From a virus: a DNA stretch of 32,493 nt. The stretch covers positions 1 to 32,493 of the IMG/VR virus record IMGVR_UViG_3300043395_001432, one strand, 5' to 3'. The first letter of the stretch is position 1. Each line of letters starts with the position of its first letter. Below are positions 1 through 32,493 of the stretch, one piece after another. Both the position numbers and the translations under genes were made by a program. A model generated the notes under the pieces. It ran no database searches, was not told where the DNA came from, and saw only the letters and a list, made by a program, of their open reading frames with translations.

Positions 1-108
1 AATTTCAATAATCCGGCTCTCGGCCACAAAGACTCGGGACAGGTCGAGTACCATGGGCGGGAGGTTCTTGTGACCACGCGGAATGGTAAGCTGGGTCTGG
101 GAAATCAT
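1..108 (-). CDS. Partial gene, N-terminal 36 residues, unknown function
   Basis: An open frame on the minus strand begins with ATG at 108 and runs off the left edge. The visible product starts MISQTQLTIPRGHKNLPPM and goes on through VLDLSRVFVAESRIIEI. The start is supported by a Shine-Dalgarno-like AAGGA a few bases upstream and by the terminator hairpin at 127-154, which separates it from the SSB-like gene. It is the next gene in the leftward transcription direction. Too little is visible to assign a family. Confidence 0.6.
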   Translation of the reverse strand, partial: MISQTQLTIPRGHKNLPPMVLDLSRVFVAESRIIEI

Positions 109-123
109 GGTATCCTTGTTAGC

Positions 124-154
124 AAAAAGGGGAGCGAGTCACCCCGCTCCCCTT
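124..154 (-). terminator. Intrinsic terminator after the SSB-like gene
   Basis: A 10-bp perfect stem (127-136 pairs with 145-154, AAGGGGAGCG) with an 8-base loop is followed on the minus strand by a T run (five A at 124-128 on the plus strand). It lies between the stop of the SSB-like gene at 183 and the next leftward start at 108, the expected place for rho-independent termination of that gene. Confidence 0.85.
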
Positions 155-182
155 CTCTATAGCTCAGAAACCTGCGTCAAAT

Positions 183-1325: not shown

Positions 1326-1361
1326 TGTGTATTGTAGTGGGTTATGGGCTGGAGTTATTGA

Positions 1362-2102: not shown

Positions 2103-2108
2103 GTATAT

Positions 2109-5100
2109 TTAGCCCTCTACTGCGTCTGGAGACTCTTCAAACTGCACTGCGCCCAACGGAGACTGAATAACCTCTACTTCAACGACTTGGAATGGCTTGG
2201 CTTCCTGCGTCTTCGTCCATACAGCTACAATAACTGCCCCCGTCAAATCGTCTGCAAGGTCGGCGGACAGCTTGCCCTTGCGGTCTGGCCACAACACCGA
2301 GCTATAGCGTGCGGAATCAACGTCCAGTACCAATTCCATGGCCTCCTTGTCCCCGCCGTAGCGGAAGCGGCGGCTGGACACTACGTAGGAAGCCGTGGCT
2401 ACCGTGTACGGGCCGACAAAAGGAGTGAGCGTATTAAGATGGTCAATAAATCGAGGAGGAGCAAAGCGGGCCTTCTTGTTCCCGTACCTGTACACCCAAA
2501 GTCCGTTCGCTTCAAGAACAATCTGCGGGTGGTTGAGGATTGGTAGCAGGGGCTGGCTGTAGGCCGGGAGGATGGCCTTGCGCATCTGGTAGCGCACCAG
2601 CGGAGACAGGTTGATGAACTCTGCCTTGACCTTGACCGGCTTCTTGCCTGACACCTGTGCCACTACGCGCTCGTACTGCTCCAGCATGTCATTGGTGTCC
2701 GACATGCCCGGGAACAGGCTGTCCATGGCCCCGGAAACAACGAGCTTGTACACCACACCCCGGTTGAGGGCAGAATGACCCATCTTCTTGGCCATGACCA
2801 CAGTCTCGGCCCCGGTCTTCTTGTCCTTCTTCTTCTTTTCGACCATGGTCGCCAGCTTCTCTCGACGGTTTTGTACCTTTTGCACAAACTCCTCTAGGGA
2901 GGCAAACGGGCGTAGTTCGCACATCTCCTTGTGCGCCCCCTCGCCAATCCCATGGAGCAGGGACAGCGGGGCCTGAATGCGCTCCCCTACAATCTCAAAC
3001 TGGTCCCCGGACTTGGAGATATCCGGCAAGTCAATGAGGTGACCGCAGTGCTTCCAAAACTTCTCGTTCACCTCGTCCTTAGAGGCGTTGCGGAGCACCG
3101 CCGTCCACCACTCCAGCGGGTAATGGTACTTGAGGAACGCACAAGCGTAGCCAATCAGGGAATAGCAGACGGCGTGACTTTTGTTGAAACCGTATCTACC
3201 AAAAACCTGAAGAAAGTCCCATAGCTGGCGAGCGCCTTCTTCTCCCAACTTGGCGATTGCTCCGGGCATGAACAGGTCGCGGTGCTTGAGGACCTTGGCC
3301 ATCTCCTTCTTAGCAATATCTCGCCGGAACGCTTCCGCTTGGTCAGCGGTAGTGCCGCCAATCTCCCGGAACGCATACTCCAGTTGCTCCTGATAAACAA
3401 TAATCCCGTAAGTCTCAGGGAAAAGCTGGTCAAGGAGAGGCATGCGCCCATATCCTTGCTCGCCCTTGGCCCGCTTGGAATACTCCACGAGCATGTTGTG
3501 GACCGGTTGCTCTAGGTCGTCCATTACCATTGCGTCCAAAGGCCCCGGACGGTCTAGGGCGGTGAAGGCAGCCAATGACTCAATAGAGTCCAGCGCCTTG
3601 TGCCCAGAGCCGTCCGATTTCAAGAAGTTGAACTCCTTCAACCACTTCTTTGCTCCGTCCGTGTTAAACTGAAACACGGTGTCGGTCTCGCTCCGACAAA
3701 TCGTGTCATATACCGACTGGTCGTCCGGCAAGTCCCATACATCGTACAGCTTCCCGCCAAAAGGAACCACGCGGTAGTAAGGTACAGCGCGGCCATTGAG
3801 AGTGTACGTGCCTTCAATCTTTTCGGAGGCCCGAGAACGAATGAGCTTCAGGGCCTCGGAAATGTCGAGCAACGTGTTCAGCCCGAGGAAGTCCATCTTC
3901 ACGCCCCCGGACTTCTCCACGGGGCCAGCCGTGTACTGGGTGACGCGAACGTCACTGACTAGCTGGAGGGGAATGAAGTTGGACACGGGCTCGTCCGTGA
4001 CCACGTAGGCAGAGGCGTGGCGACCCTTGTTGCGAACTACGCCCAAGCACTTGACCACAATATCCCACTGCTTGGGGTACTTCGCAATGTACTCCTTCAA
4101 AAACTCGTCGGTTTCGATAGCGCCCTTGACCCAGCCGTCCGCGCCATCGTAGCCAAAGACGTAGTCCCGGTCGGAAATGCCCTGCGGGGGCATGGCCATC
4201 TTCTTCGACAGCTTCTCAATCTCGTCCGGCACCTTGCCGTAGGTAGCGCGGGCCACGTCCTTGATGGAAGACTTGACCTTCATCGAGGTGTCAACCGAAA
4301 TCTGAGCGTAGCACTCGCCAAACCGCTGCTTGAGCCAGCCCTTGTCCGGGTCCACAAGAATGTCCCGGTTCGGCAAGTCCATATCAATATCGGGGAGCTT
4401 GCCGGAAAGGATACGAGTCTTCGTCAAGAACCGGTCCATGGACAGGTTGTAACGAAGCGGGTCCGCGTGGGTAATCCCCAGCAGGTAGGTGAGCAGCATG
4501 CCCGCTGCCGAGCCACGGCCCGGACCCGTCAACTGCTCCTGTGCCGCAAACTGGGCAAGGGCCTCCTCTGCGAGGAAGAAATAGGGGAGCAGGTCAATCT
4601 TCCCGTTGCCCTGAATCATCGAGATTTCAGCCTTCAGCCGCTCCACATACTTCTGGTTCGTCCAGTCCATCCGCCCGTGCTTGTCAATCAGGGCCTTGAG
4701 GTGGCCGAGCGTGTTGGTCGGATAGAACGACTTCGGCAAGGACACTCGGTCATTAAACTTGAAGCCCTTGAACTGCTCCGCCCATGCGTGGCTGTTGTCA
4801 ATCCAGCCCTCAAACGTGGCGCGGTCAGTCTTCATGTACTGGGCAAAGTAGGCGAACGCCTCCTCGCTCGACTGCCGGTGGTAGTTGCCGTAGAACTTAA
4901 AATTGTCGCCCATGGAGGCAAGGCGAATCTCCTGCACAATCCGCTCGTCCGGGTGAGCGTAGTGGGAGTCGTCCGAAATGAGAATGCGGTGGCCGTACTT
5001 GCCCGCAAAATACTGGACAACGCGGTTGCAACCTAGCTGGACGTCTCCATCCGGAGCCCATGGGCGGCACTCGTTGGGCATGAAGTCCGAAATCTTCTTG

Positions 5101-5885
5101 ACGCCCACGATGACCTTGTTGCGCTCATCCCACTTGCTGTAGTTTTGCACAGCAAGCAGCCGGTCAGTCTCGTGCCCCTTGCGACCGAACGACTTCGCAA
5201 GGTCAATGGCCTTGATTTCGCCACCCTTTTCGGTGTTCAGGCCCTTGTTGTCGTAGAACTTGTCAACCGAATTGTCCTCGTAGGTAACGAATACCCCGTT
5301 GACCCAGTTCTTGTCGCAACGGTGCGGGAAGACCTCTACAAAGAAGTGGTCCGGCTTGACGATTTCCGAAAGCCGCCGGTAATACGCCTCGGCAATATCC
5401 ACGCGGTTATGGTTCAGGACGTGGCGCTGGACCATTCCAATCAGGCAACCCGAGGTGAAGGTGACGTTCTGGGCACCGATTTCTTCAAGGTCCCGCCAGT
5501 TGAACAGGGGCTTGAGTTCAGACCCGTGGCGCTCTACCGGAGCCTTGGACAGTAGCCGCACGATAATCTCGTAAGCGGCTTGGTCCAGAGCGTGAATGGT
5601 AAGGTGGTAATACTTGTTGTACTTCTTCGCGTCCTGAATGCCGAACGACTTCAGGATGGGGCACTCTGCGTCAAAGAAGTACGCCTCAATTCCCAGAATG
5701 GGAGTCAGGCCCTTGGCCTTGGCGAGGTCATAGACCTTCCGTGCGGCCCCAAGGCTGCCATGGTCGGTGACAGTCAAGTACCCAGTGCCAAGCTCCAGTT
5801 CGCGCTCTGCGAAGGCTTCCGGGGTGCTGCCAGAGTCGAGGGACTGGGGGTGAACGTGGGGCGAAACGAAGGGCTTGAAGGTCAT
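2109..5885 (-). CDS. dnaE: DNA polymerase III alpha subunit (DnaE-type, with PHP domain)
   Basis: Replicative C-family polymerase of 1258 residues, slightly longer than bacterial DnaE. Residues 1 to about 330 are a PHP domain: HVH (H10, H12), D17, TDHG (D41, H42), GIEAYF (E67), YHL (H94), a TSGC cysteine and a final SDDSHY. All the usual metal ligands therefore appear to be kept, unlike E. coli DnaE. The polymerase core has GPGRGSAAG, the catalytic PDIDMD pair, and the third carboxylate in GGVKMDFLGLN. The fingers motif GRYGFNKSHAVCYSLIGY is present, and an OB-like segment lies near the C-terminus. ATG 5885 lies just after a terminator and a GGTTATAG motif, so it probably heads its own transcript. 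No separate proofreading subunit of DnaQ type is seen in the window. Confidence 0.96.
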   Translation of the reverse strand: MTFKPFVSPHVHPQSLDSGSTPEAFAERELELGTGYLTVTDHGSLGAARKVYDLAKAKGLTPILGIEAYFFDAECPILKSFGIQDAKKYNKYYHLTIHALDQAAYEIIVRLLSKAPVERHGSELKPLFNWRDLEEIGAQNVTFTSGCLIGMVQRHVLNHNRVDIAEAYYRRLSEIVKPDHFFVEVFPHRCDKNWVNGVFVTYEDNSVDKFYDNKGLNTEKGGEIKAIDLAKSFGRKGHETDRLLAVQNYSKWDERNKVIVGVKKISDFMPNECRPWAPDGDVQLGCNRVVQYFAGKYGHRILISDDSHYAHPDERIVQEIRLASMGDNFKFYGNYHRQSSEEAFAYFAQYMKTDRATFEGWIDNSHAWAEQFKGFKFNDRVSLPKSFYPTNTLGHLKALIDKHGRMDWTNQKYVERLKAEISMIQGNGKIDLLPYFFLAEEALAQFAAQEQLTGPGRGSAAGMLLTYLLGITHADPLRYNLSMDRFLTKTRILSGKLPDIDMDLPNRDILVDPDKGWLKQRFGECYAQISVDTSMKVKSSIKDVARATYGKVPDEIEKLSKKMAMPPQGISDRDYVFGYDGADGWVKGAIETDEFLKEYIAKYPKQWDIVVKCLGVVRNKGRHASAYVVTDEPVSNFIPLQLVSDVRVTQYTAGPVEKSGGVKMDFLGLNTLLDISEALKLIRSRASEKIEGTYTLNGRAVPYYRVVPFGGKLYDVWDLPDDQSVYDTICRSETDTVFQFNTDGAKKWLKEFNFLKSDGSGHKALDSIESLAAFTALDRPGPLDAMVMDDLEQPVHNMLVEYSKRAKGEQGYGRMPLLDQLFPETYGIIVYQEQLEYAFREIGGTTADQAEAFRRDIAKKEMAKVLKHRDLFMPGAIAKLGEEGARQLWDFLQVFGRYGFNKSHAVCYSLIGYACAFLKYHYPLEWWTAVLRNASKDEVNEKFWKHCGHLIDLPDISKSGDQFEIVGERIQAPLSLLHGIGEGAHKEMCELRPFASLEEFVQKVQNRREKLATMVEKKKKDKKTGAETVVMAKKMGHSALNRGVVYKLVVSGAMDSLFPGMSDTNDMLEQYERVVAQVSGKKPVKVKAEFINLSPLVRYQMRKAILPAYSQPLLPILNHPQIVLEANGLWVYRYGNKKARFAPPRFIDHLNTLTPFVGPYTVATASYVVSSRRFRYGGDKEAMELVLDVDSARYSSVLWPDRKGKLSADLADDLTGAVIVAVWTKTQEAKPFQVVEVEVIQSPLGAVQFEESPDAVEG

Positions 5886-5894
5886 TTGCGGGGT

Positions 5895-5902: not shown

Positions 5903-5913
5903 TGAAATGCGAA

Positions 5914-5931: not shown

Positions 5932-5936
5932 CTCTT

Positions 5937-7662: not shown

Positions 7663-7669
7663 TCTGTAA

Positions 7670-9593: not shown

Positions 9594-11459
9594 CTACTTG
9601 ATGGGGCAACTTCCATTCTGGCACTCTAGACTATCGAGGTCGCTGCCACTCCCCACCGCATCTACGTTCACCGGGGAGATTTTGGAAGACAGCTTCTCAA
9701 ACTGCTCCTTCGTGATGGCTTCCTTCGGAGCCTGCTTGAAACCATGCTCGGAATGGCAGAGGAACGAAATGGTCTTGAGGTACTGGAGGTTATCGGCAAG
9801 CCACTTCTTCAGTTCCGGTAGCTCTTCCCGCTTGTAATACACGGTCACCGAAACCGCTTGGTCGGCCCAGTGCTTCTGAGCCATCCTGAGCACATCTAGC
9901 TGCTGCCAAGTGGTCCAATTTTCGTCTGCTACAGGAGCACCTTCGGGAGCCTGCTCGTAGAAGTCAACCACCACGGTGTTGTGGTCGAGCGTACCATCAA
10001 AGCGCACCACCGGCTCAATATGGTGACCCGCAGCAGCAAGCAAGGGGACAAGCGGGTCCGCAGAAGAGAAGCGTACACGCTGGATGTAGTACCGGCTGTA
10101 GGCTGCGTGGATGCCTTCGTACCCGCGCATATCATACATCTTGGAGATGGTCCCGGACGGCTTGATGACCGTGGTGCGGATGGACTCGGGGATGCCTAGC
10201 TCACGGCTGTACTTGACATTCTCGTCCTGAATGGCCGCATACGCCCGGTCGAGATGCTCCGGGGTAAACAGCGGGCTCTGGAGACAGCCGGTAATGCCAG
10301 TCCCAATGCGCCGGTTGCGCTTGATGACCTCGTCGCACTTGGGCTGGTGGTACTTCTCCATGGTTACCCGCTTGCCCCAACGGTGCATGAGCCGACCGGC
10401 CTCTACAAACTCGTCTGGGCTGGCGATATGGGGTAGGGCAATCTCCTGTAGATTGCAGGGCTCCCCGTCCTCCAGCGTGGCCTCTGCGCAGGGATTGACT
10501 ACGATGGCCGAGTCCTTCTTCAACTCGCCCATACGCCCGTACTTCTGGATGTTGGTACGATTGACAATACCAAACGGCTCGCCCTGCTCGTAGGTCTTCC
10601 AGAACAGCGGGTGCAGGTCCTCTACGTCATCCACTACTACGCTGAAATTCGCCATGGCCCGTTGGGTGGGGATGGGGCCGAGGTCCCAACGCTTGGCCTT
10701 GAGGTATTCCTTGTCGAAAGCGTCACCAAGAATGATAATAGCAGAGCGGCGCACGTTACCCGCTACTACCATCTCGCCAATTGAGCAGAGAATGTCTGCT
10801 GCGTCAATCGGGCGAATGGAACGGCCTTCCCGGGCCTGTAGGATGGCAGTCAGCTTCTCAATGTAGTTGATGAGAGGGAGCGGGCCAGAGGCGGTTCCAC
10901 CAAAGCCCTTGATGACCTCCCCGGCCCCACGAATGACGACCGTGGAATACTCTACAGACTTGCCTGTGACGAAGAATGCCTCCAGCACGCGGCGGGTAAG
11001 TTCGCACCAGCCTTCCCGACTGTCTGGGACAATGAATGAAGCGTCCTTGGTGGACTTGTGGACCACCTTGACGTTCTTTTTGACCTTGGGGAGCTTGGAG
11101 ACGAAGCGGTGCTCTACGCTCATGCCCACGCCACCACCCAGCATCAGGAGGTCCTGCGCAAGCACGAAGTTGTACCAATCGTCCCCAGTCACGCCCCAGC
11201 AGTTAACCAGAGCCGCTCCGCCCAGAGTAGAATGAGAGGGAGCGCCCGAGAACCAGTACCCACGGCCCGCAGGGCCCGCCTTGCGCTCGGTCAGGAAGTA
11301 GCGCAGGCGATTGATTTCATTCTCTGACAAGTTGTGCCCACGGACATTCCCGCCGATGACACGCTCTACCGTATCATTCCAAGACTCTACAAAACCGAAG
11401 TCCTTGCGGGCGTAGGTGCGCTTGAAGACTACTGATGCTAGGTTACTCCAGTCAGACAT
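9594..11459 (-). CDS. nrdJ: Class II (adenosylcobalamin-dependent) ribonucleotide reductase
   Basis: Reduces ribonucleotides to deoxyribonucleotides using B12. It resembles the monomeric Lactobacillus-type triphosphate reductase: VNCWGV near residue 87 holds the first redox cysteine; NPCAE followed 11 residues later by PCNL gives the thiyl cysteine, glutamate and second redox cysteine at the family spacing; and the C-terminus ends with a CxxxxC pair (ECQNGSCPIK) for re-reduction. At about 621 residues it is shorter than the 739-residue prototype. Two in-frame ATGs occur (11465 and 11459); 11459 is chosen because AGGAG lies 8 bases upstream, whereas it is only 2 bases from 11465. It sits between the resolvase and dUTPase genes. 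No small subunit gene is needed or seen. Confidence 0.93.
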   Translation of the reverse strand: MSDWSNLASVVFKRTYARKDFGFVESWNDTVERVIGGNVRGHNLSENEINRLRYFLTERKAGPAGRGYWFSGAPSHSTLGGAALVNCWGVTGDDWYNFVLAQDLLMLGGGVGMSVEHRFVSKLPKVKKNVKVVHKSTKDASFIVPDSREGWCELTRRVLEAFFVTGKSVEYSTVVIRGAGEVIKGFGGTASGPLPLINYIEKLTAILQAREGRSIRPIDAADILCSIGEMVVAGNVRRSAIIILGDAFDKEYLKAKRWDLGPIPTQRAMANFSVVVDDVEDLHPLFWKTYEQGEPFGIVNRTNIQKYGRMGELKKDSAIVVNPCAEATLEDGEPCNLQEIALPHIASPDEFVEAGRLMHRWGKRVTMEKYHQPKCDEVIKRNRRIGTGITGCLQSPLFTPEHLDRAYAAIQDENVKYSRELGIPESIRTTVIKPSGTISKMYDMRGYEGIHAAYSRYYIQRVRFSSADPLVPLLAAAGHHIEPVVRFDGTLDHNTVVVDFYEQAPEGAPVADENWTTWQQLDVLRMAQKHWADQAVSVTVYYKREELPELKKWLADNLQYLKTISFLCHSEHGFKQAPKEAITKEQFEKLSSKISPVNVDAVGSGSDLDSLECQNGSCPIK

Positions 11460-11471
11460 TGCCATTTCTCC

Positions 11472-15033: not shown

Positions 15034-15040
15034 GCTCACC

Positions 15041-18649: not shown

Positions 18650-19222
18650 ATGCTTGTGTCTTTCGTTGGCTCTCCGTGCAGTGGCAAGACGACTACAGCG
18701 GCATCCGTGTTTGCCGAACTCAAGGCAAGCGGGTTGCCAGCCGAGTTCGTGGGTGAGCATGCGCGTTTGTATATTGCCCAAGCCAAGTGCAAGGCCATGG
18801 ACAACAACGTCCCGTTTGAGCTAACGGACGAAGACCAGCGTAAGATTTTCATCAATCAGTACGAGATTGAGAAAACGATGACCCGGGTGTGTGGACCCGA
18901 AGTTGTTGTCATTTCCGATAGCTGCCCGCTTAACAGCCTGCTCTACATGAACGATTTGAACCTGTTCGTTCAGCCGGACGCTTTCATTTCTGAAGTCGCT
19001 AACTCGCTAGAGCTTATCTTTGTTTGCGACCCTGTCAAGCCTGCAACTTCGATTGACCCGAATCGCATTCACGACGAAGAGCAGTCGAAGGCTATCCACG
19101 CCAAGATTGAGCCCATGCTAGCAAAGTGGGCTCCGCATATCAAGACCGTTCCGCTGTTCGGTCCCAATAGCGCACGGGTAGGCACTGTCCTACGGCATTT
19201 GTACTCACGGACGGTTTGGTAA
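18650..19222 (+). CDS. NadR-like P-loop kinase (AAA_28-type ATPase)
   Basis: A 190-residue P-loop protein with Walker A GSPCSGKTT (about 7-15), an EHARLYIAQ motif like the E-x-A-R-x-Y-I of NadR-type ribosylnicotinamide kinases, LTDEDQRKIFINQYEIEK, and a hhhSDS strand (VVISDSCPLNSLLY) equivalent to Walker B. The order matches the AAA_28/NadR kinase family. The likely reaction is phosphorylation of a small nucleoside such as nicotinamide riboside, but the phage version may act on another nucleotide. First gene of the rightward operon, preceded by the TGCGTTATA motif. Its stop overlaps the helicase start (TAATG). Confidence 0.7.
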   Translation: MLVSFVGSPCSGKTTTAASVFAELKASGLPAEFVGEHARLYIAQAKCKAMDNNVPFELTDEDQRKIFINQYEIEKTMTRVCGPEVVVISDSCPLNSLLYMNDLNLFVQPDAFISEVANSLELIFVCDPVKPATSIDPNRIHDEEQSKAIHAKIEPMLAKWAPHIKTVPLFGPNSARVGTVLRHLYSRTVW

Positions 19223-20697
19223 TGCCCATCGTCATTGAGTCGCCTACGGTAGCTCGGCTGGTTGGCTACGAAGGCAGGGAAGAAGAACTCCGTCGCCTGC
19301 TTCGCTACCACGACAAAAAGGTTGACTTTGAAATCCAGAAGTTCAAGAACAGCCCCTACAACCTCCAGCGTCTAGGGGAAGAGGAGTTCAAGGCTCGGCT
19401 GGATGCTCTCAAGGCAGAGCGAATCAAGTATCTTGTTTTCCGGGATGAGCAGGGGCTGTGGACGTACAGCGGGTTGGCAAACAAGACCGCTCTGCATTTC
19501 CAAGACACGATTGAAAACAAGGTCGAGTACCCCGAGCGTGAGTCTTGTCCTTGGCACCGTGTATTGGACAAGGAGCCTCGTCCCTACCAGCAGCAGGCGG
19601 TAGAGAGGCTGATTGAAGGCAAGCATGCAGGCGTGGAGAAGGGGACTGGTCTAGGCAAGTCTCTGGATATCATGCTGCTGGCCAAGCACCACGGACTTAA
19701 GACCATCATCATGGCTCCGTCCGTATCCATTGCAGGTCAGCTTTACGAGGACTTCCTGCACTACTTTGGTCCCAAGAACGTAGGCAAGTTCTACGGCGGC
19801 AAGAAGGAATCCCAGAAGCGGTTCGTGGTGGCTGTGGCTGCCTCCTTGACTCGGGTAGAGCAGGGCACCAAGGACTGGGACAACTTGTCCAAGGCCAAGG
19901 TCTTTATCGCAGACGAGTCGCACCTGTGCCCCGCTTCGACGCTGTTGGAGGTCTGCTTTGGACTGGTTCGGAATGCTCCTTACCGCTATTTCTTCTCTGC
20001 CACCCAAATCCGAAACGACGGTCTGGACTTGGTTTTGGAAGGCATCACGGGACCTATCGTATTCCGTATGTCCGTCCGGGAAGGCATCGAACAAGGGTAC
20101 CTAGCGAAGCCTTTGTTCAAGCTCATTCGCACCAAGTCGGCTAGCCAGTACCATTCTCGTGATGTAAACAACATGACCCGCAAGCACTTGCTGTACAACC
20201 CGGCGGTCAATAAGGCCGCTGGGGAACTTGCGAACAAGGCTGTGGACCTGCTTGGTCACTCGGTTCTCATTCTGGTAGACGAAATTGAGCAGTTCTCCCA
20301 CCTGCTTCCCTACCTAAAGCACCCCGCCAAGTTTGCCCATGGTGGAGTCACCAAAGAGAACAAGGGCAGCCTGCCTCCAGAGTATCACGACAGCGACCCT
20401 GCTGCCCTTGTGGAGGAATTCAACGCAGGGAAGCTACCCATCCTCGTGGGCACCTCCTGCATCTCGACTGGGACCGATATCCGAGCCGTCAAGACCATGA
20501 TTTACCTCATGGGCGGCAAGTCGGAAATTCAGGTGAAACAAGCGGTCGGGCGTTGTACACGTAAGGTGCCCGGTAAAGACTCCTGCATGGTCATCGACTT
20601 CGACGTTGTCAATATCGAATCGCAGCACCGCCACGCCCAAACCCGTAAGCTCATCTACGATGACATTTATGGTCCCGTAGCCGAGATTGATTGGTAA
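19222..20697 (+). CDS. SF2 DNA helicase, UvsW-like
   Basis: A superfamily 2 helicase of 491 residues. A helical N-terminal region (1-125) precedes RPYQQQAVERL (Q-like motif), Walker A GTGLGKS (about 141-147), the DESH box (ADESHL, about 230), motif III FSATQ (about 259), and the second lobe with motif VI QAVGRCTRK (about 440). This is the layout of T4 UvsW and related branch-migrating helicases, which unwind R-loops and recombination forks. ATG 19222 shares a base with the preceding stop; the frame's earlier TTG is rejected. Its neighbours, a sigma-like factor and the Mre11-like nuclease, fit a recombination-dependent replication set. Confidence 0.92.
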   Translation: MPIVIESPTVARLVGYEGREEELRRLLRYHDKKVDFEIQKFKNSPYNLQRLGEEEFKARLDALKAERIKYLVFRDEQGLWTYSGLANKTALHFQDTIENKVEYPERESCPWHRVLDKEPRPYQQQAVERLIEGKHAGVEKGTGLGKSLDIMLLAKHHGLKTIIMAPSVSIAGQLYEDFLHYFGPKNVGKFYGGKKESQKRFVVAVAASLTRVEQGTKDWDNLSKAKVFIADESHLCPASTLLEVCFGLVRNAPYRYFFSATQIRNDGLDLVLEGITGPIVFRMSVREGIEQGYLAKPLFKLIRTKSASQYHSRDVNNMTRKHLLYNPAVNKAAGELANKAVDLLGHSVLILVDEIEQFSHLLPYLKHPAKFAHGGVTKENKGSLPPEYHDSDPAALVEEFNAGKLPILVGTSCISTGTDIRAVKTMIYLMGGKSEIQVKQAVGRCTRKVPGKDSCMVIDFDVVNIESQHRHAQTRKLIYDDIYGPVAEIDW

Positions 20698-20702
20698 CAT
20701 AT

Positions 20703-21725
20703 ATGCCACTAATCGTAGACGACGAGCACTTCCAGTCATTCGCCTCTGTCCTAGAGCAGGCCATTGAGAAGTATGGCAACCTAGAAGAGGAGGACCTGCT
20801 TGCTCGGCAGAAGCGTCAAGTCGAAAAGCTGGTCAAGCTGGAGAAGGACTTCCGTAAGACCCTGATTGCTCATCCTTGGGGCGGAACTGTCTACAGGGCG
20901 TTTATTTCGATGATTTGTGATGAGCGCCGAAACATCTTGGCTGCTCGACCTTTCTTCCGAGAGCGCCAGCCTGTATTTACCCAGAAAATCTCCAAGGCGC
21001 TTAAGAGCCGTAATGAGAAGGCTCTCCAAAAGTTTCATTTCAACTTTACCTTTGTCACCTTTGTGCTCAGGTCCCGTAAGTGGCCCAAGGGCAGTCAGAT
21101 TGTGAAGCTGGCCAAGGACATTGCTGACATTCGCCAAGAGATTATTGAGATGAACATGCCCTTGGCAATCAGCCGGGCAAGCATCTTCTGGCGCAAGACT
21201 CCCAAGGCCCAGCTTTCCTACATGGACCTTGTGCAGATTGCTTGTGAAGGGCTAATGTCCGCCGTGGACAAGTTCTGCCTGCCTTTCTCCCGGGTGTTCC
21301 GAGCCGTTGCGATTGGCCGCATGCTGGGGAATTTCATTGAGCAGTACAGTGAAACCTTGGTTCATTTCTACCCAGTTGACAAGCGCAAAATCTACCGCGC
21401 CAACAAGCTAATGAAGCATTTCCCGGATGGGGTGGACTTTGACTTGCTGGCTGCCGCTGTCAATAAGGAAGTGGACGACGGCCACCTTACCACCCCGGCT
21501 GAGATTGCGGACCTCCTAGCTGCCGCTTCGTGCGTTTCGACGGACACCTCTGCCCCCAACGACCCGGAAGAGTCTGAGGTGCTGGATACCTACGTGGCAG
21601 ACGTCACTTCGCAGCCTGACTACCAATACGAACAACATGAAGCTCGCCAAGTGCTGGCTTCTGCTCTAGGCAGCCTAGACCCGCTGGAGCGTAAGCTGCT
21701 CAAAATGAAGGGGATTTCGTTTTAG
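20703..21725 (+). CDS. Sigma-70-family-like factor lacking region 4.2
   Basis: A 340-residue protein. Residues about 151-220 match sigma region 2: NMPLAISRAS, then SYMDLVQIACEGLMSAVDKF, FSRVFRAVAIGRMLGNFIEQ, as in NLRLV..., DLIQEGNIGLMKAVDKF and FSTYA of bacterial sigmas. Residues 1-150 are a long helical extension with no known match. The last 26 residues (RQVLASALGSLDPLERKLLK, MKGISF) read like region 4.1, and then the protein stops where the region 4.2 helix-turn-helix should follow. T4 gp55, the late sigma, likewise lacks region 4. It probably directs RNA polymerase to the phage promoters. ATG 20703 lies 6 bases past the helicase stop, with no strong Shine-Dalgarno. Confidence 0.82.
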   Translation: MPLIVDDEHFQSFASVLEQAIEKYGNLEEEDLLARQKRQVEKLVKLEKDFRKTLIAHPWGGTVYRAFISMICDERRNILAARPFFRERQPVFTQKISKALKSRNEKALQKFHFNFTFVTFVLRSRKWPKGSQIVKLAKDIADIRQEIIEMNMPLAISRASIFWRKTPKAQLSYMDLVQIACEGLMSAVDKFCLPFSRVFRAVAIGRMLGNFIEQYSETLVHFYPVDKRKIYRANKLMKHFPDGVDFDLLAAAVNKEVDDGHLTTPAEIADLLAAASCVSTDTSAPNDPEESEVLDTYVADVTSQPDYQYEQHEARQVLASALGSLDPLERKLLKMKGISF

Positions 21726-23981: not shown

Positions 23982-24600
23982 GTGGATGACAAGGCTCGTA
24001 TTGGCATTCGGCCCGTTTTTCGTTGGCTTGTACTTACGCCACATTTACCGTCGCTGGTCTTGGCTGTATCGCTGGTTGTGGGAGCGCAAATATCGGAACG
24101 TGCCCTTGACCGAGTACACAGGTTTCATCGAACTTGCCCGGACGGTACGCAAGAAGAAATGGGTGGCTGACGGGCCAAAACAGCTTTGGGATGCCATTTC
24201 GACCCCTCAAGCAGCCCAGCGGCTGATTGATACGAATGACTCCAAGCAGTCGTTTGATTGCGACGAGTTTGCTATCTACCTGTGCAACGTCATCTGGAAT
24301 GCCATGAAGAAAGGTACTTTCAATGACCGTAACCTCGTGGAGGCGTGCTTCTTCACGGTGACGTGGATTATTCCGTCTACCGGGGAGATGGGCGGGCATA
24401 ACGTTTGTGGGCTCAAGTGGACTCATTCCGGCAAAGATGTGTATGGCTACATGGACTACGGAATGCCCCTCATGGCTATGTTTAGCTGGAACGAGGTCGC
24501 TGAGCGGGTCCGCATTCGTTATGCAGGCGTCAAGGAGGTTGTCAGCCTTGGCTGGTCCCGGCACACTCCGGAGTTGGACTTCATCGAAGCGAGCAAGTAA
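23974..24600 (+). CDS. Membrane-anchored transglutaminase-like cysteine protein
   Basis: A 208-residue protein. A hydrophobic N-terminal helix (about 6-23, VLAFGPFFVGLY) is followed by a strongly basic, Trp-rich flank. The rest shows a transglutaminase-like triad in order: FDCDEFAIYL (C96), GGHNVCGL (H142), YMDYG (D161). In this fold the Cys-His-Asp set supports peptidase, transglutaminase or amidase-type chemistry. It lies between the probable small and the large terminase, an unusual position; ATG overlaps the preceding stop and its own stop overlaps the large terminase start (TAATG). Possible roles are cell-wall or host-protein modification, or a morphogenetic protease. Not proven. Confidence 0.72.
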   Translation: MSKWMTRLVLAFGPFFVGLYLRHIYRRWSWLYRWLWERKYRNVPLTEYTGFIELARTVRKKKWVADGPKQLWDAISTPQAAQRLIDTNDSKQSFDCDEFAIYLCNVIWNAMKKGTFNDRNLVEACFFTVTWIIPSTGEMGGHNVCGLKWTHSGKDVYGYMDYGMPLMAMFSWNEVAERVRIRYAGVKEVVSLGWSRHTPELDFIEASK

Positions 24601-26489
24601 TGGCCGCCATCCCATCCGAAGAAGAGCTACTCCGCAAGGCGCTGTTCGTCCCCTGCAACAACAAGGAGGCGCTGCACCGCTGGATTAAGGTCTATCTTGG
24701 GGTGGACATGCCGGACTGCTTGGTGGACCCATCTTCCACCGCCAGTGCCATGGACGTCATTTGGGAAATCTACAGCGTGGTTCGTAACCGCACGCCCGGA
24801 TTTACTCAATCGCTCGCATTCTCATCCCGAGACTCGTTCAAAACGCTCAGCGCCTCCATCGTTGAGGTGCTGATGCTTGCGCATTTGGAATGGAATGTCG
24901 CTCACATGGCGGCAATCTTACCCCAAGCAAAGAAGTCACAGCAGTACGTTAAGAAGTTTTTTAATCGCCCTTTCTTGCGGGACTTCGTAACCTCGACCAA
25001 CGAACGGATGGTCGAGATTACCCGTTACCGAAACCGTAAGACGGGCGAGTTTCTGTCTCCGAAGGAGTTTGAGACAGCAGTAGACAAGGCGGGATACGAA
25101 GAACTCAAGAACTACATTTCAATTGTTGTGGCCACCTTGCAGGGCGCTAACTCGGAGCACGTACCGTTCATGTGCGTAGACGAGGTAGACGTAGTGGAAA
25201 ACCCCGATGCCTACGAGGAAGCCAAGTTCATTCCCGCCCCGTTTCAGGGGCAGCCACCCATCACCCTACTTACGTCCACACGTAAGTTCTCATTCGGTCT
25301 TGTCCAAAAAGAGATTGATAACGCACATGAAACTGGTCTACACATTCGCCATTGGAACATCATCGACGTCACGGAAGCTTGTCCGCCCGAGCGTCACCTT
25401 CCCGAAGAACCCAAAATTGCCATCTATCGTTCCGATGACACACTTCGTGCCATCCCCGAGAAAGACTATCAAGCCCTCTCCCCTGAAGACCAAGCCAAAT
25501 ACATTGCGGACCAAGGCTACGCGGGCTGCCTAAAGAACTGCAAGCTGTTCGCGGTGTGTAAGGGCAGGCTGGCGACCGAGCAGAAGTCCCGGTCGCCCCT
25601 GCTCAAGCCTATTGACCACGTCATCGGCCAGTTCCGAAAAGTCTCCATCAACAAGGCCAAGGCCCAGTTGATGTGCTGGAAGCCCTCCACGGAGGGTTTG
25701 ATTTACCCCAACTTTGAGCGGGAAATCCACATGCTGACCGCCTCTCAGATGGCGGAAAAGCTGACTGGAATGACATTCCCAGCGAATTTCAGCAAGGCGG
25801 AACTTCTCGACTTGATGCAGAAGCGTGAAGTGCTGTTCTATTCTGGCCTCGACCACGGTTACACGCACAACTTCGCAAACGTGACGGGCGCTCTGGACGC
25901 TAAGCGTCTATTCGTAATCGACGTTATATCTCAGCCAGAGTTGGAATTGTCTCAGAAGATTGAGGCACTCGAAAGAATCAAGCACTTGAATCCTGTCATT
26001 TTCCCGGACCCAGAAGACCCCGCGAGCAATAAAACGCTCGCTCGGCATTTCCGCGTCAAGAATTTCCACAAAGAAAAGGGCTCGGTCATCGGTGGCATTG
26101 AAGTGGTCCGCATGAAGCTAATGCCCGGAATGTCCCAGCCAGAACTGTTTTTCTTGAAGGGCGACCTTGGGGTGGAGCTATTGTGCAAGCGTCTGTCTCA
26201 GTACCACTGGGAACTGGATGCCGCTGGCCGCCCCACGGATGTTCCGGATGACGAGGACGACGACGAAGTTGACGCATTGCGGTACTTGTGCATGAACCTG
26301 TTTGCTCCCAAGGGCAAGTTTGGTATGGTCCGGGACGAAAAACCGGTAACGCCCACCGCAGCAGACGCCAACACCTACACCCAGCAGAACTGGGCTCAGA
26401 AAATCATTACCGAGCAGATTGGTAGCAACCCCCAGTCCGAATCGACCGGCTCAGCAGGCAAGCGCGGCGGGTTCATGTGGGACGTGTAA
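24600..26489 (+). CDS. terL: Terminase large subunit (packaging ATPase/nuclease)
   Basis: The DNA-packaging motor and nuclease, 629 residues. The ATPase part has a deviant Walker A, SSRDSFKT (75-82; the R-x-x-x-K-T/S form seen in TerL), Walker B FMCVDEVD (190-197) and coupling motif LLTSTR (223-228). The nuclease half has SGLDHG (D418) and a late DDDEVDALRYL with acidic residues of the RNase H-type site. A Cys cluster (C310, C314, C320, plus C261) may bind metal in the linker region. The C-terminal 60 residues are polar and Thr/Asn/Gln-rich. Followed by head genes in the usual order. Confidence 0.93.
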   Translation: MAAIPSEEELLRKALFVPCNNKEALHRWIKVYLGVDMPDCLVDPSSTASAMDVIWEIYSVVRNRTPGFTQSLAFSSRDSFKTLSASIVEVLMLAHLEWNVAHMAAILPQAKKSQQYVKKFFNRPFLRDFVTSTNERMVEITRYRNRKTGEFLSPKEFETAVDKAGYEELKNYISIVVATLQGANSEHVPFMCVDEVDVVENPDAYEEAKFIPAPFQGQPPITLLTSTRKFSFGLVQKEIDNAHETGLHIRHWNIIDVTEACPPERHLPEEPKIAIYRSDDTLRAIPEKDYQALSPEDQAKYIADQGYAGCLKNCKLFAVCKGRLATEQKSRSPLLKPIDHVIGQFRKVSINKAKAQLMCWKPSTEGLIYPNFEREIHMLTASQMAEKLTGMTFPANFSKAELLDLMQKREVLFYSGLDHGYTHNFANVTGALDAKRLFVIDVISQPELELSQKIEALERIKHLNPVIFPDPEDPASNKTLARHFRVKNFHKEKGSVIGGIEVVRMKLMPGMSQPELFFLKGDLGVELLCKRLSQYHWELDAAGRPTDVPDDEDDDEVDALRYLCMNLFAPKGKFGMVRDEKPVTPTAADANTYTQQNWAQKIITEQIGSNPQSESTGSAGKRGGFMWDV

Positions 26490-27506: not shown

Positions 27507-27509
27507 ACC

Positions 27510-29603
27510 ATGGCTAAGAATGAGACTAAAGTCCAGCTATTTATTGCGGACCCCAACGCTACCCCGGTCAATGACTTGGCCAAGATGGAGGGCGGCGTAA
27601 AGGAGGCTCCGTCGCTGGCGAAGTCCATTCTGCGCGTGCTGAATGCGGGTGGAGAGGACACCGTAGAGCGCCTTGCGTTTGAAGTAGACCCTTCGCTCAA
27701 TAACGAGTATCAGGCGCTGTACAAGGGCAAGATTCGGCTCATTCCGGACTTCCTGCTCAAGCGCATTGCCATTCAGGATGACCTCGTTGCGGCCATCCTG
27801 AATGCTCGGTCCAACCAGCTTTCCATCTTTGGCCGTCCCCAGCCTGACCGCTTCTCTACTGGTTTCAAAATCGAGCCCCGCAAGGAAGTGTTGGAGCGGG
27901 CTTCCGCCGAAGAGAAGAAGGCCATTCAGGCTCGTATTGAGAAGGCCACCAAGAAGCTTCTGCACTGCGGCGACACTCGTGGCTGGTCCGACGACGAGAA
28001 AATGTCGTTTTCCCAGTGGCTTTACATGTCCACCCGTGATGCTCTTACAGTGGGTCGCATTGCCACGGAAATCATCTATGTACTGGATGAGGATTCCGGC
28101 AAGCAGGTCTTCCATGGGTTCCGTCCTATCGACGCGGGAACCGTTTACAAGGCGTCTAAGCACAAAGCCGCTGCTCAATCTGTTCGCCACCAAGCCAAGC
28201 GGCTGCTAGAGCAGCTAAAGAACGAGAAGTTTGAGTCCGAGCGTTTCATGGCGGACGAGTACGCTTGGGTGCAGGTCATCGACGGCAAGCCTGTGCAGGT
28301 GTTCACAGACACCGAATGCGTTGTTCACAATTTCTATCCTGTGACGGACGTGGCTCTTAACGGCTACCCGCTGACGCCAATTGACACTGTCATTTCGGCG
28401 GTAACCACCCACATCAACATCACCACGCACAACAAGCTCTACTTCCAGAGCGGTCGTGCGACCCGTGGCATGTTGGTCATCAAGTCCAACGACATTCAGC
28501 CCAAGGACTTGAAGGAAATCCGCAGCCAGTTCAACAACTCTATCAATAACGTCTCCAACTCGTGGCGCATGCCCGTGTTCTCCGTGGGCGGAGACGATGA
28601 TATTGTGTGGTCGCCTATTGACAACGGTGGCCGGGACATGGAATTCCAGTACATGTCCGACACGAACGCCCGTGTCATCTTGTCGGCGTTCCAGATGAGC
28701 CCGGAAGAGCTTCCCGGCTACGCTCACCTTTCCCGTGGTACCAACAACCAAGCGTTGTCCGAGTCGAACAACGAGTATCAGCTAGAAGCTCACCGCGACC
28801 TCGGCATCCGTCCTCTCATCAAGCATTTCGAGGACTTTGTCAACGAGTCCTTGTTGCCCCTGATTGACGAAGGGCTGGCAAAGGTCGCGTCCCTGCATCT
28901 GGTAGGCATCAACGCTGAGACGGCGGAAAAGGAGTCCATCCGCCTCCAGCAGGACATGCCTGTCCACATGACCTTTGACGAGGTGCTCGCCAAGGTCGAA
29001 AAGACGCCTATTGGTAAGCGTTGGGGCGGTGAGTTCCCGCTCAACGCCAGCTTCCAAGTCATCCTCGATAAGTACATGACGGTGGGGCAGATTCTGGAGC
29101 AGTTCTTTGGCGTGGAAGGCGCAGCCAAGGACCCTCAGTACGCCTACGTCCGGGACCCGTTCTGGTTCCAGAACGTCCAGTTGCAGCAGGCTCAGCAGCA
29201 AATGCAGATGCAACAGCAGCAGATGCAGGCCCAAGCCCAGCAGCCGCAGCAGGGCCAGCTACCTCCGGGACAGGATGGCGGACAGGGCCAGCCCGAGGCG
29301 TCTGCGCAAGCGCCACAGGGGCAGGAGCAGCAGCAGGGTGACGCACAGACTCAGCAGAACCCACAGCAGGAACAAAATGTGGGTCAGCCAGAACAGGATG
29401 CTGCACCTGAACTGACACAGGGCATTGACCAAGCGTTGGGTCTTTTGGGTAAGTCGGAGAAGGACCTTCCTCCCACCAAGCGCCGCATTTTGGCGCAGCA
29501 CAAGAAGATGGTCAAGACCATCATGGACGCTTGGGAGCAAGACTCCCGTAAGGCGCTGGACGAGATTTTGGATGTGGCCGAGAAGCATGCTCCGAAGGGA
29601 TAG
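27510..29603 (+). CDS. Portal protein
   Basis: A 697-residue protein forming the dodecameric portal at the head vertex. Visible features typical of portals: the N-terminal arm with IPDFLLKRIAIQDDLVAAIL, a wing domain with WLYMSTRDALTVGRIATEII, the ILSAFQMSPEELPG segment (the V/I-x-x-x-F-x-I/V-P-P-E motif), and the long C-terminal helix segment. Residues about 557-632 are a Gln-rich, low-complexity stretch followed by a helical, charged C-terminal tail. It lies between the structural protein and the MuF gene, the standard order. Confidence 0.88.
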   Translation: MAKNETKVQLFIADPNATPVNDLAKMEGGVKEAPSLAKSILRVLNAGGEDTVERLAFEVDPSLNNEYQALYKGKIRLIPDFLLKRIAIQDDLVAAILNARSNQLSIFGRPQPDRFSTGFKIEPRKEVLERASAEEKKAIQARIEKATKKLLHCGDTRGWSDDEKMSFSQWLYMSTRDALTVGRIATEIIYVLDEDSGKQVFHGFRPIDAGTVYKASKHKAAAQSVRHQAKRLLEQLKNEKFESERFMADEYAWVQVIDGKPVQVFTDTECVVHNFYPVTDVALNGYPLTPIDTVISAVTTHINITTHNKLYFQSGRATRGMLVIKSNDIQPKDLKEIRSQFNNSINNVSNSWRMPVFSVGGDDDIVWSPIDNGGRDMEFQYMSDTNARVILSAFQMSPEELPGYAHLSRGTNNQALSESNNEYQLEAHRDLGIRPLIKHFEDFVNESLLPLIDEGLAKVASLHLVGINAETAEKESIRLQQDMPVHMTFDEVLAKVEKTPIGKRWGGEFPLNASFQVILDKYMTVGQILEQFFGVEGAAKDPQYAYVRDPFWFQNVQLQQAQQQMQMQQQQMQAQAQQPQQGQLPPGQDGGQGQPEASAQAPQGQEQQQGDAQTQQNPQQEQNVGQPEQDAAPELTQGIDQALGLLGKSEKDLPPTKRRILAQHKKMVKTIMDAWEQDSRKALDEILDVAEKHAPKG

Positions 29604-29606
29604 ATT

Positions 29607-32228
29607 GTGCCTAAACCCAAGAAGCTCGCCAAGGCCCAGAAGAACAAGTCGCGCCCTAGCCTGCTAGGCAAGGGGGCAATCAAGGCCATTCATTCGGCCC
29701 TAGACAGCCTCTTTGATAAAATCAAGGCCCGTTTCCTTGGCCCCAAGTCTTTGGGCGGCAAGCAGATTCGGTTCACCTACGAGCGGCCACTATCAATCCC
29801 GGGCCTGTATGAGTCCGGGCTGATTGCGGACGGAGCCAAGCCCAACCTCGACACGCTGGACAGCCTTGTCCATGTGGCGGGCGGGTACGTGGATTCCCTC
29901 CGGGAGAACTCCAAGGCCAACGTAGTCCATACCATTCAATCGTTCATCCGGGACGCCCACCAGCGGGATATTCAGACCGACTTCCGTACCATTCTGGGCG
30001 GGCAGCTAGCGGACCTCTGGGCCTCCACCAGCGGCAAGCTGGAGAGGATTGTTGATACCGAGGCCACCAAGGTGCGCAATGTTTCAGCCCTTGAGGGCAT
30101 TCTAGAAATCAACGCCTCTAGGGGCATTGAAGATGCAGTGGTGTACTGGATTGTAGTGAAGGACGGGGCTTTGTGCAATGAGTGCCGCCGCCTCCATCTT
30201 ATGGGCGACGGGCACACACCCCGGCTCTGGTTCATGTCGGAAGTCAAGCAGGGCTACCATAAGCGCGGCGAAGATGCCCCGGCTATTGGCGGGCTGCACC
30301 CGCACTGCCTAACCGGCAACATGCGCATCCACACTGACCGTGGTATGCTGACCGCCAAGGAGCTTTTTGAGCAGGGCGGCAACCTCAAGGCGGTTGTGGA
30401 CGAGCGGGTCAAGGTTCGGCGTCAGGGCAACAACCAGTTTGGCGCAGAGCTAGAGGGCCAAGTGTGGTACCACCGCCACGCCTCCGGGGCTCGCTTGCTG
30501 GACGCAACTCACGTTTATGATACTGGCGTTCAGCCGTGTTACCGGATTGAGCTAGACTCTGGTCACGTTATCGAGGTCTCGGAAGGCCACGAAATGTGGG
30601 TGGATGACGGCAATGCTGGCGTCAAAATCCGTGCGGACAAGCTCAAGGTCGGAGACAAGGTTCCGTTGCTGTCCGGAGAGGGCGCTTTTGGCAGTGACTC
30701 TTTCCCAGAGCTTGCCGAGTTGATGGGCAACCTGATGGGAGATGGGACTCTAAACGACACTGCTCAATTCCATTTCTTTGGGGATGACATTGAGTACGGT
30801 CGTCACCTCAAGGCTATGGCCGCCAAGTTTAGCGACAGGCTGGACGGCGAGATGACCGTTTATCCACCGAATAACAAATACTCGGTAGACCACGCTACTT
30901 TCAATAGCCAAGTTCTGCGCCGTATTTTTGTGGAGGAGTTTGGGCTATCCAAGACCCCCCGTCGAGTTCCGGCACGAATTTGGGGCGCAGACAAGGCTAC
31001 CGTAGCTGGTTACGTTCGGGGTCTATTCGCGGCTGACGGGCATTCCGAAGTAACTCCATCGGTGGTATTGGCTCAGAACGATTCGGAGTTCCTGCGCGAA
31101 ATCCAAGCCCTGCTATCTAATTTTGGTATTCGTTCACGCATCTTTAAGCATGACGAAGCCATGCAGAAGACCATCACCTATGCCGATGGCTCTCAATACG
31201 TTACGGAGCGCAAAGAGTGCTGGCGTCTTCACGTCGGTGGCTGGGAACAGGTCAATCGTTTCGCTACCGAAATTGGGCTCGGCGTTCCCGCTAAACAGCG
31301 CAAGCTGCTAGAGCGCCTAGAGGCTACTAAGGAGAATGGACGCCACGGAGCGTGGCGTACTGCGAGGGTGCTATCCATTGCGTCTATTGGCGAACAGCAA
31401 ACCTACTGCCTAACTGAGCATAAGACCAATACCATCACGGTGAACGGTATTGTAACGGGCAACTGCCGGTGCAGCATGGTAACGCTGCTCCCCGGCTACG
31501 GCTTTGACGCTGGTGGCAAGGTGGAGTTCAAGAAGTTCGGCTACAACGCCATCAACGTCCAGCGCGGCACCAACAAGGCTGAAGACGCCTTCCCCGGCCT
31601 GTTGCTTGCCAAGGACGGCGAAGACGAGCACGATGCTGAAGACTTGGAAAAGGCTCTTCCGCCCTACAATCCGGCCACGGACACCTCGGACAAGGAGCGC
31701 CAGACAATCTCGGACTGGCAGAACTACGCCGATACCAAGTCCCGGAACGCCATCCCACGGCTTATTGGCGCAGGACGGGAGCGTGCCCTGCACAAGCTTC
31801 ATGGGAAGACTGAAGCTCGCCGTAATCCCACCACAGGCGAGCGCGAGTTCTTGCTCCACCGGGGCGTGGGGAACACGGACAAGCTCCAGATTGAGAACGG
31901 CGTAGTTTCACACAAGGGCGTGGGCTCGTGGACGTTTGACCCAGAGATTGCCCAGTCTTTTGGTAAGCGCCGCAAAGGAACGGTGTCGGCGTGGATTCCC
32001 GAAAGCGCCATCCACCATGTTCTAGACCAAGTCGGCTACGTCAACGACGGCGCTACGGCCGGGATACACGGCAACAAGCCCAAGCCGGGGATTTCGGTAC
32101 CGCACCCTACCGACCCCAACGCAATCCCACGGGCGATTGGCAAGCCCGGATACCGCGAAGGAGAGATTCTGGTAAAGCTGCCCAAGGGGGCACACGTCCA
32201 CAAGTGGGAGCCTAGCCCTCCCGCTTAA
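29607..32228 (+). CDS. MuF-type head protein fused to ADP-ribosyltransferase domain, with intein
   Basis: An 873-residue precursor. Residues 1-233 plus 620 onward form a MuF/SPP1 gp7-type head morphogenesis domain with a metal-binding set: C190-x2-C193 and HPHCRC (H231, H233, C620, C622). Between H233 and C620 sits an intein (residues 234-619). The mature, spliced protein would be 487 residues. The C-terminal part (about 740-866) resembles an ADP-ribosyltransferase: R752 in LLHRGVG, S774 in GSWTFDPEIAQSF, and E851-x-E853 in REGEIL. MuF proteins may be packaged with DNA, so this could be an injected effector. The start is GTG 29607 with AAGGGA upstream; no ATG fits. The ART call is by motif order only. 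Confidence 0.88.
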   Translation: MPKPKKLAKAQKNKSRPSLLGKGAIKAIHSALDSLFDKIKARFLGPKSLGGKQIRFTYERPLSIPGLYESGLIADGAKPNLDTLDSLVHVAGGYVDSLRENSKANVVHTIQSFIRDAHQRDIQTDFRTILGGQLADLWASTSGKLERIVDTEATKVRNVSALEGILEINASRGIEDAVVYWIVVKDGALCNECRRLHLMGDGHTPRLWFMSEVKQGYHKRGEDAPAIGGLHPHCLTGNMRIHTDRGMLTAKELFEQGGNLKAVVDERVKVRRQGNNQFGAELEGQVWYHRHASGARLLDATHVYDTGVQPCYRIELDSGHVIEVSEGHEMWVDDGNAGVKIRADKLKVGDKVPLLSGEGAFGSDSFPELAELMGNLMGDGTLNDTAQFHFFGDDIEYGRHLKAMAAKFSDRLDGEMTVYPPNNKYSVDHATFNSQVLRRIFVEEFGLSKTPRRVPARIWGADKATVAGYVRGLFAADGHSEVTPSVVLAQNDSEFLREIQALLSNFGIRSRIFKHDEAMQKTITYADGSQYVTERKECWRLHVGGWEQVNRFATEIGLGVPAKQRKLLERLEATKENGRHGAWRTARVLSIASIGEQQTYCLTEHKTNTITVNGIVTGNCRCSMVTLLPGYGFDAGGKVEFKKFGYNAINVQRGTNKAEDAFPGLLLAKDGEDEHDAEDLEKALPPYNPATDTSDKERQTISDWQNYADTKSRNAIPRLIGAGRERALHKLHGKTEARRNPTTGEREFLLHRGVGNTDKLQIENGVVSHKGVGSWTFDPEIAQSFGKRRKGTVSAWIPESAIHHVLDQVGYVNDGATAGIHGNKPKPGISVPHPTDPNAIPRAIGKPGYREGEILVKLPKGAHVHKWEPSPPA
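30306..31463 (+). other. Intein with LAGLIDADG homing endonuclease domain
   Basis: Residues 234-619 of the precursor, 386 residues. It begins with CLTGNMRIHTDRG (block A) and has a TYCLTEHKTNTITVNGIVTGN-type end that leads into Cys +1 of the C-extein. Block B is GHVIEVSEGHEMWV. Two LAGLIDADG-like motifs, LAELMGNLMGDG (369-380) and VAGYVRGLFAADG (466-478), mark the homing nuclease. The penultimate residue is Gly (G618), not His. Removing it restores HPHCRC exactly, confirming the insertion point. Splicing by family precedent is expected but not tested. Confidence 0.92.
31824..32204 (+). other. ADP-ribosyltransferase-like domain within the MuF protein
   Basis: Encodes residues about 740-866. 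Motifs in order: R752 (FLLHRGVG), S774 (SWTF), then REGEILVKLPKG containing E851 and E853. This R-S-ExE order is that of NAD-dependent arginine mono-ADP-ribosyltransferases such as T4 Alt-like and bacterial toxins. Spacing between S774 and the ExE (77 residues) includes a Pro/Gly-rich loop, so the fold should be checked. No signal sequence. Confidence 0.6.
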
Positions 32229-32493
32229 CATGCGGGAACCAGTAGCAGTCGTTGTAGGCTCGGAACTCCCAGCCCTCGTCGCCAACCGTTAAGTATCCCT
32301 TAACAGTTCGCCCCTTGAACCTACAGGCAGCCGGAATGCTGAAGTATGTATCCGGCTCGCCTTGTGCGTACACCGTCCGGCGACCAAAGACGGTGGGGCA
32401 GTTGCGAACGAGGGACAGGGTGTGGCCGCCCATCCAGTAGGCGTACCACGGAACTGCCCCGTTCGGGAACTCCTGCTTGCTCGGCGCTTCTGC
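32212..32493 (-). CDS. Partial gene at right edge, unknown, convergent with the MuF gene
   Basis: A minus-strand frame is open from the right edge to a stop at 32212, overlapping the MuF stop by 17 bases. A first in-frame ATG is at 32433, but the upstream codons (KQEFPNGAVPWYAYWM) look coding, so the gene probably starts beyond the window. The visible product is aromatic and Gly/Cys-rich (PTVFGRRTVYAQGEP, GWEFRAYNDCYWFP). Function unknown; its place next to a putative toxin makes an immunity role possible but unsupported. Confidence 0.6.
   Translation of the reverse strand, partial: AEAPSKQEFPNGAVPWYAYWMGGHTLSLVRNCPTVFGRRTVYAQGEPDTYFSIPAACRFKGRTVKGYLTVGDEGWEFRAYNDCYWFPHVKREG

Follow-up and report, generated by a model that had tools for sequence, protein, structure and literature searches.

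Background

Elimination of restriction sites from phage genomes, including that of GATC from a large phage, is already in print, as the relevant passages of PMC6532042 and PMC6286503 indicate. The closest described case is Staphylococcus phage K, a large myophage whose loss of GATC is ascribed, in a passage of PMC6532042, to Sau3A. In the survey of Rusinov et al. 2018 (PMC6286503), which was based on phages whose hosts and enzymes are known, the parts on site avoidance report near-exclusion (bias <0.1) of palindromic Type II sites in double-stranded DNA phages, with GATC among the avoided words; there, elimination is assigned mainly to orthodox Type II enzymes, and near-exclusion is found mainly in non-temperate phages. 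Here we describe the complete absence of GATC from the virus record IMGVR_UViG_3300043395_001432 (32,493 bases; referred to as the window, which is the whole stretch of DNA that was analysed), part of the genome of a large phage akin to Myxococcus phage Mx1, and the recurrence of this loss among its relatives. Unlike that survey, we compared many related phages, most of them uncultured, using a Markov estimator. What is remarkable here is the extent and the recurrence of the elimination, and we came across no description of the Mx1-like family among the open-access papers listed for Myxococcus phages with GATC and for GATC-free phages, subscription papers being outside the scope of that search.

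Results

Absence of GATC from the window

No GATC was detected in the window (positions 1-32,493) on either strand, the word being its own reverse complement, while 123 sites are expected from base composition alone and 83.5 from a second-order Markov model. Restriction-site elimination was defined as an observed/expected ratio <0.1 with >15 sites expected, and GATC in the window falls well within this definition (0/83.5), having the lowest z-score among the 256 tetranucleotides. We also shuffled synonymous codons for 500 rounds in 30 coding sequences, which together make up 31,056 bases if overlaps enter twice, keeping the protein and the codon usage of each, which gave 104.7 ± 7.8 GATC sites (range 82-128) against none observed. 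Since the shuffles never yielded fewer than 82 sites and the Markov model predicts 83.5, chance, composition and protein content do not explain the absence. The program count and its Markov expectation thus bear out the preliminary description, in which GATC was said to be absent across the window, and CTAG (74 vs 84 expected) and CCGG (201 vs 210) are indeed not depleted, as it had stated. Its claim that the loss is specific is not supported in that form: GATC is the only 4-mer totally lost, but SAGCTS and several six-base palindromes are missing from the window as well.

The replacement of the sites was followed in 140 ortholog pairs between the window and GATC-containing relatives, and the alignments covered 981 GATC sites found in these relatives, where the same window position can count with more than one relative. 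Both residues were unchanged in the window at 251 of these sites, at which the window variants are synonymous by construction, the residues being the same. The replacement was GACC at 97 of the 103 such sites in frame 0 and GATT at 65 of the 145 in frame 2. At the other 730 sites at least one residue differs, which is little informative at about 50% identity. Both the shuffles and the synonymous variants at conserved residues point to selection on the word itself rather than on codons or amino acids.

After GATC, the lowest z-scores among the 4-mers of the window belonged to CGCG (71 vs 136 expected), AATT (46 vs 92) and TGCA (88 vs 136). Against the synonymous shuffles, CGCG was found 68 times vs 159.5 and TCGA 95 times vs 158.8. 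Among longer words, SAGCTS was absent where the same shuffles predict 32 occurrences, and GGCGCC, AGCGCT, GTCGAC, CTGCAG, CAGCTG and AGTACT were likewise absent, with about 9-12 of each expected. In total, six-base palindromes without a GATC core occurred 223 times vs 415 expected. Six of 21 palindromic six-base words were purged, compared with only 3 of 1,578 non-palindromic ones (CAGCTC, CATCGC and GACATC), the first of which falls within SAGCTS.

Recurrence of the loss in the Mx1-like family

A family set of 106 records, including the window and Mx1, was gathered by terminase, DnaE and portal searches; it includes a few near-copies (e.g. G015/G016 and L129-L131), and 75 of its records are known from loci rather than whole contigs. 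GATC was missing altogether from 18 of the 106 records, and its observed/expected ratio was below 0.3 in 25. The ratios form two peaks, with most records outside the low group lying at 0.5-1.1, and Mx1 itself retains 432 of 807 expected sites. The largest depleted records, of 171,713 and 159,288 bases, have 0 of 441 and 0 of 430 expected sites, respectively, followed by one of 164,871 bases with 6 of 613, and records with no site at all span GC contents of 0.42 to 0.67.

On a portal tree of 99 rows, the low-GATC state requires 13 changes, 12 of which are forced by starred branches, and 11 changes if intermediate records are left out; a terminase tree of 93 rows requires 12 or 10. Over the two trees and three thresholds 10-13 changes of state are required, a count that cannot separate loss from regain of GATC. 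The low-GATC label is still clustered on the portal tree, where shuffled labels need 21.5 changes on average. Near neighbours on this tree differ, with 13/111 observed/expected sites in G018 vs 440/477 in G037, and 0/10 in L106 vs 96/90 in L058. G015 (L171-L179) and G016 (L168-L170), from two metagenome collections, share five residual GATC sites with identical spacing and are apparently one phage. The flanks of residual sites were examined as well: CGATCG accounts for 3 of 6 sites in G015 and 3 of 8 in L270, vs 8.7% in six GATC-rich genomes. This bias was not repeated in G017 (0/3), G018 (0/13) or G019 (1/36), and no conclusion was drawn from it.

We then asked which words are purged across the family, screening 4-mers in records that reach 10 kb and 6-mers in the 30 records that reach 30 kb; overlaps were counted twice for records known from overlapping loci, which are 6 of the 30 in the 6-mer screen (L038, L048, L056, L061, L067 and L074). 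As is characteristic of Type II sites, only palindromes were purged among 4-mers. Ratios below 0.2 were seen for GATC in 18 records (G016 repeating G015), AATT in 3, TTAA in 2 and CCGG in 1, whereas comparable non-palindromic 4-mers were untouched across the family, none of 9,163 tests giving a ratio below 0.2 or even below 0.28. Among 6-mers, ratios below 0.15 were obtained in 128 of 1,157 palindromic vs 36 of 53,692 non-palindromic tests, with the single record G014 contributing 20 of the former and 15 of the latter. GAGCTC was purged in 23 and CTCGAG in 13 of the 30 records, Mx1 having 0 of 73 and 0 of 45 expected sites, respectively. The GATC loss and the wider six-base purge are separable, since six-base palindrome totals are normal in two records purged of GATC, G001 (561 vs 555 expected) and G015 (2,288 vs 2,345); none of 27 other six-base palindromes was purged in G001.

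Some records showed profiles of their own. G014 (L160-L167) has 0 of 430 expected GATC and 7 of 206 CCGG sites and has lost 20 of 52 tested six-base palindromes, together with 15 non-palindromic 6-mers such as CAGCAG (0/35). AATT is purged while GATC is normal in G028 (L257-L263; 0/61) and in the near-copies L119 and L120 (0/38 each), the latter two also being without TTAA (0/16).

GATC in other phages

Three Myxococcus phages outside the family were also poor in GATC: Mx8 (L272) with 3 of 108 expected sites (ratio 0.03), Mx9 (L274) with 2 of 106 (0.02) and Mx4 (L273) with 13 of 87 (0.15), the counts for Mx9 and Mx4 coming from 50-kb stretches. Mx8 is a relative of Mx9, and the window terminase matched neither of these nor Mx4; like the window, all three have nearly eliminated or strongly depleted the word. 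GAGCTC is normal in Mx8, Mx9 and Mx4 (16, 17 and 21 vs 15.9, 17.0 and 23.5 expected), hence the six-base losses were not borne out as a marker of Myxococcus. AGCT is halved in Mx8 and Mx9 (0.46 each). A DNA methyltransferase, mox, is annotated in Mx8. The Mox protein acts on XhoI/PstI sites, and an enzyme MxaI has the site GAGCTC; a literature search on these yielded nothing usable.

By the same method, Staphylococcus phage K has 0 of 358 expected GATC sites in 148,000 bases, and among 8 related loci, each 8 kb or longer, 6 were without GATC, one had 1/48 and one 20/46. Phage K is thus like the window phage in its complete loss of GATC and unlike it in belonging to another family, in having another host, for which the GATC enzyme is known, and in having none of 36 six-base palindromes purged.

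For a broader comparison we took loci carrying a relative of the window ribonucleotide reductase. Of 57 such loci, 50 were at least 8 kb long, and removal of 13 family members, by hand, and one copy left 36; two of the removed loci, L284 and L285, were set aside on a weak DnaE match of a kind kept elsewhere, so the number could equally be 38. Ratios below 0.1 were found for GATC in 5 of the 36, for TTAA in 2 and for CGCG, GCGC and TCGA in 1 each, and in none of 4,306 non-palindromic tests. In a stricter set, with no match to seven family markers, GATC was purged in 4 of 30. GATC elimination is therefore not peculiar to the Mx1-like family. Single loci also combined losses, namely CGCG (0/51) with GCGC (0/43) in L313 and GATC (0/60) with TCGA (0/28) in L317.

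Searches for nucleases, methyltransferases and associated genes

DpnII (PF04556) and MutH/Sau3AI (PF02976) were each detected in 0 of 50 family records, the window and many of the others being fragments, and no DpnI (PF06044) match exceeded the cut-off in 25 records, nor in 14 control genomes. Methyltransferase families were rare: PF02086 was found in 1 of 50 records (G040), PF01555 in 2 (G026 and G040) and PF00145 in 1 (G047). All carriers contain GATC, and none of the GATC-free records that were searched had a nuclease or methyltransferase of a matching family. With only these three records carrying the searched families, a protective methyltransferase was rejected as a general rule for GATC-rich members.

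Gene content was compared over 3,345 predicted proteins from 31 records, grouped in 2,195 clusters. The sole cluster exclusive to the low-GATC group, present in all three long records of that group (G005, G014 and G015) and in 0 of 9 long GATC-containing ones, is CYTH-like (e.g. L011:16881-17507), one of its 4 members matching CYTH slightly below the cut-off. As it occurs in the GATC-free G001 but also in the GATC-rich G043, we treated it as chance. A cluster with the opposite distribution, in 7 of 9 long GATC-containing and none of 3 long low-GATC records, is also present in 5 low-GATC fragments including the window, and was likewise dropped.

In search of hosts, genome contigs were searched with the terminase alignment, which retrieved two contigs, in metagenome-assembled genomes called Saccharibacteria (8/76 observed/expected GATC sites) and Elusimicrobia (71/69). 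We judged both contigs to be possible binning errors. Searches of plasmids gave no lead either.

Genes of the window and kinship to Mx1

Among 50,697 phage records, the only match to the window terminase large subunit (24600..26489, + strand; phrog_5653), which served as family marker and tree gene, was Mx1 (169,621 bases), with 52.1% identity over 100% of the length. Mx1 was also the best match of the DnaE-type DNA polymerase III alpha subunit (2109..5885, - strand; phrog_405), with 52.2% identity over 99%, and the portal protein (27510..29603, + strand; phrog_15361), the other tree gene, is 56% identical to that of Mx1. The window belongs to the Mx1-like family by its homologous terminase, DnaE and portal in matching order. 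Window and Mx1 share a gene order in which a GroEL-like chaperonin (16053..17846; phrog_5725), an SbcC-like protein (12991..15039; phrog_77), a ribonucleotide reductase (RNR, which gathered the comparison set; 9594..11465; phrog_367) and DnaE lie on one strand (- in the window), and a helicase (19216..20697; phrog_16), a sigma-factor-like protein (20691..21725; phrog_351), a phosphoesterase, the terminase and the portal lie on the other (+ in the window). A dUTPase and an SbcD-like protein are also encoded in the window.

The protein encoded 3′ of the portal gene (29607-32228, + strand) contains an intein with a LAGLIDADG domain (Pfam LAGLIDADG_3, 2.7e-14), and its Intein_splicing match (33.7 bits) is slightly below the cut-off. 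Its C-terminal part resembles what we take to be an ADP-ribosyltransferase motif; a comparison with solved structures gave no match below E 0.6.

Discussion

The absence of GATC from the window most probably reflects restriction-site elimination under recurrent cleavage of GATC by hosts. Hosts that the phage repeatedly met would have cut GATC, the simplest candidate being a Type II restriction enzyme with the specificity of DpnII, MboI and Sau3AI, acting on the unmodified site. As each new GATC would lower the odds of a successful infection, alternatives, synonymous at conserved residues, would have been retained until no site was left. Palindrome loss that is total and scattered over the tree is what Type II restriction predicts, and the depletion of further palindromes in the window fits several past restriction systems. 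From these patterns we infer that a restriction enzyme of the host is responsible, and also of which type it is. The avoidance of a GATC-specific system, as proposed in the preliminary description, is accordingly a plausible mechanism, since the sequence is from a phage, the loss goes beyond chance and codon usage, and it is repeated in relatives; the part that did not stand is a specificity limited to GATC.

Several observations weigh against this explanation. The GATC-cutting host enzyme is itself inferred. Mx1, a phage of Myxococcus, still has 432 of the 807 sites expected, so the pressure must vary between hosts or times. G001 and G015 are GATC-free without a general purge of six-base palindromes, and the argument from other restriction sites is therefore inapplicable to them. 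The six-base losses of the family are missing from Mx8, Mx9 and Mx4 (0/29, 0/29 and 0/28 palindromes purged). In addition, Mx8 and Mx9 are described as lysogenic in a passage of PMC10720576 and yet are purged like virulent phages, while near-exclusion is reported mainly for non-temperate phages in the part of PMC6286503 cited above.

Other causes can be proposed. If some hosts methylate GATC in a Dam-like manner and others cut the methylated site with a DpnI-type enzyme, phages moving between them would lose it; such modification-dependent cutting would hit GATC alone, as in G001 and G015, and a passage of PMC6286503 gives a GATC compositional bias <1 for 46 of 46 phages with hosts encoding the corresponding Type IIM enzyme. 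We consider it improbable, as the same source assigns avoidance mainly to orthodox Type II enzymes, and the losses of AATT, CCGG, GAGCTC and CTCGAG in relatives would be left unexplained. These four words would also be left in place by MutH nicking at GATC during methyl-directed mismatch repair, a counter-selection proposed for enterobacteriophages. MutH is not known outside a few groups of gammaproteobacteria, and Myxococcus is not known to have it. Loss confined to GATC, which this cause predicts, is seen in G001 and not in the window, where other palindromes are depleted. A case discussed in this light is phiX174, which is without GATC like the window but is a small single-stranded DNA phage of E. 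coli, likened here by description only; mismatch repair is discussed as its cause in the section of PMC5014478 on enterobacteriophages, whose authors call the forces unclear. On balance, we regard a mismatch-repair origin of the loss as very unlikely.

Almost as unlikely is a GATC-cutting nuclease encoded by the phages themselves, e.g. for degradation of host DNA, against which they would be protected by the absence of the site. It would account for complete loss without a methyltransferase, and there is room for it, as most proteins of the family have no assigned function and the window covers only part of a genome. Nevertheless, neither DpnII nor MutH/Sau3AI (0/50 each), nor DpnI over the cut-off (0/25), was found, the one exclusive gene cluster is CYTH-like and shared with the GATC-rich G043, and a nuclease of the family would not explain the GATC poverty of the unrelated Mx8, Mx9 and Mx4. 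An artefact of composition, codon usage or assembly is refuted by the controls and retains next to no probability, with nothing in its favour: neither the Markov nor the synonymous-codon estimate accounts for the absence, zero-site records cover GC contents of 0.42-0.67, and G015 and G016 share their residual-site spacing across two metagenome collections.

Restriction-site elimination by host cleavage of GATC thus remains our preferred explanation. For a 4-base word to vanish completely from genomes of 160-170 kb, selection has to act persistently on individual sites. That this is found repeatedly within a single family, other members of which have hundreds of sites, amounts to a natural replicated test of how often phage genomes are re-coded. 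Perhaps, and we put this forward tentatively, the strongest single restriction pressure on the whole of this mostly uncultured family, of which the only isolate infects Myxococcus, comes from cleavage of GATC. Mx8 and Mx9, which are temperate, and Mx4 lie outside the family of the window and are purged or depleted though unrelated to it, so many myxobacteria may possess a GATC-directed defence that is undescribed or unusually efficient. From the words purged in each phage one might then read which defences its hosts have, and lists of purged palindromes might help to name the hosts of uncultured phages. The data point towards a GATC-cutting defence that would be worth seeking in myxobacteria.

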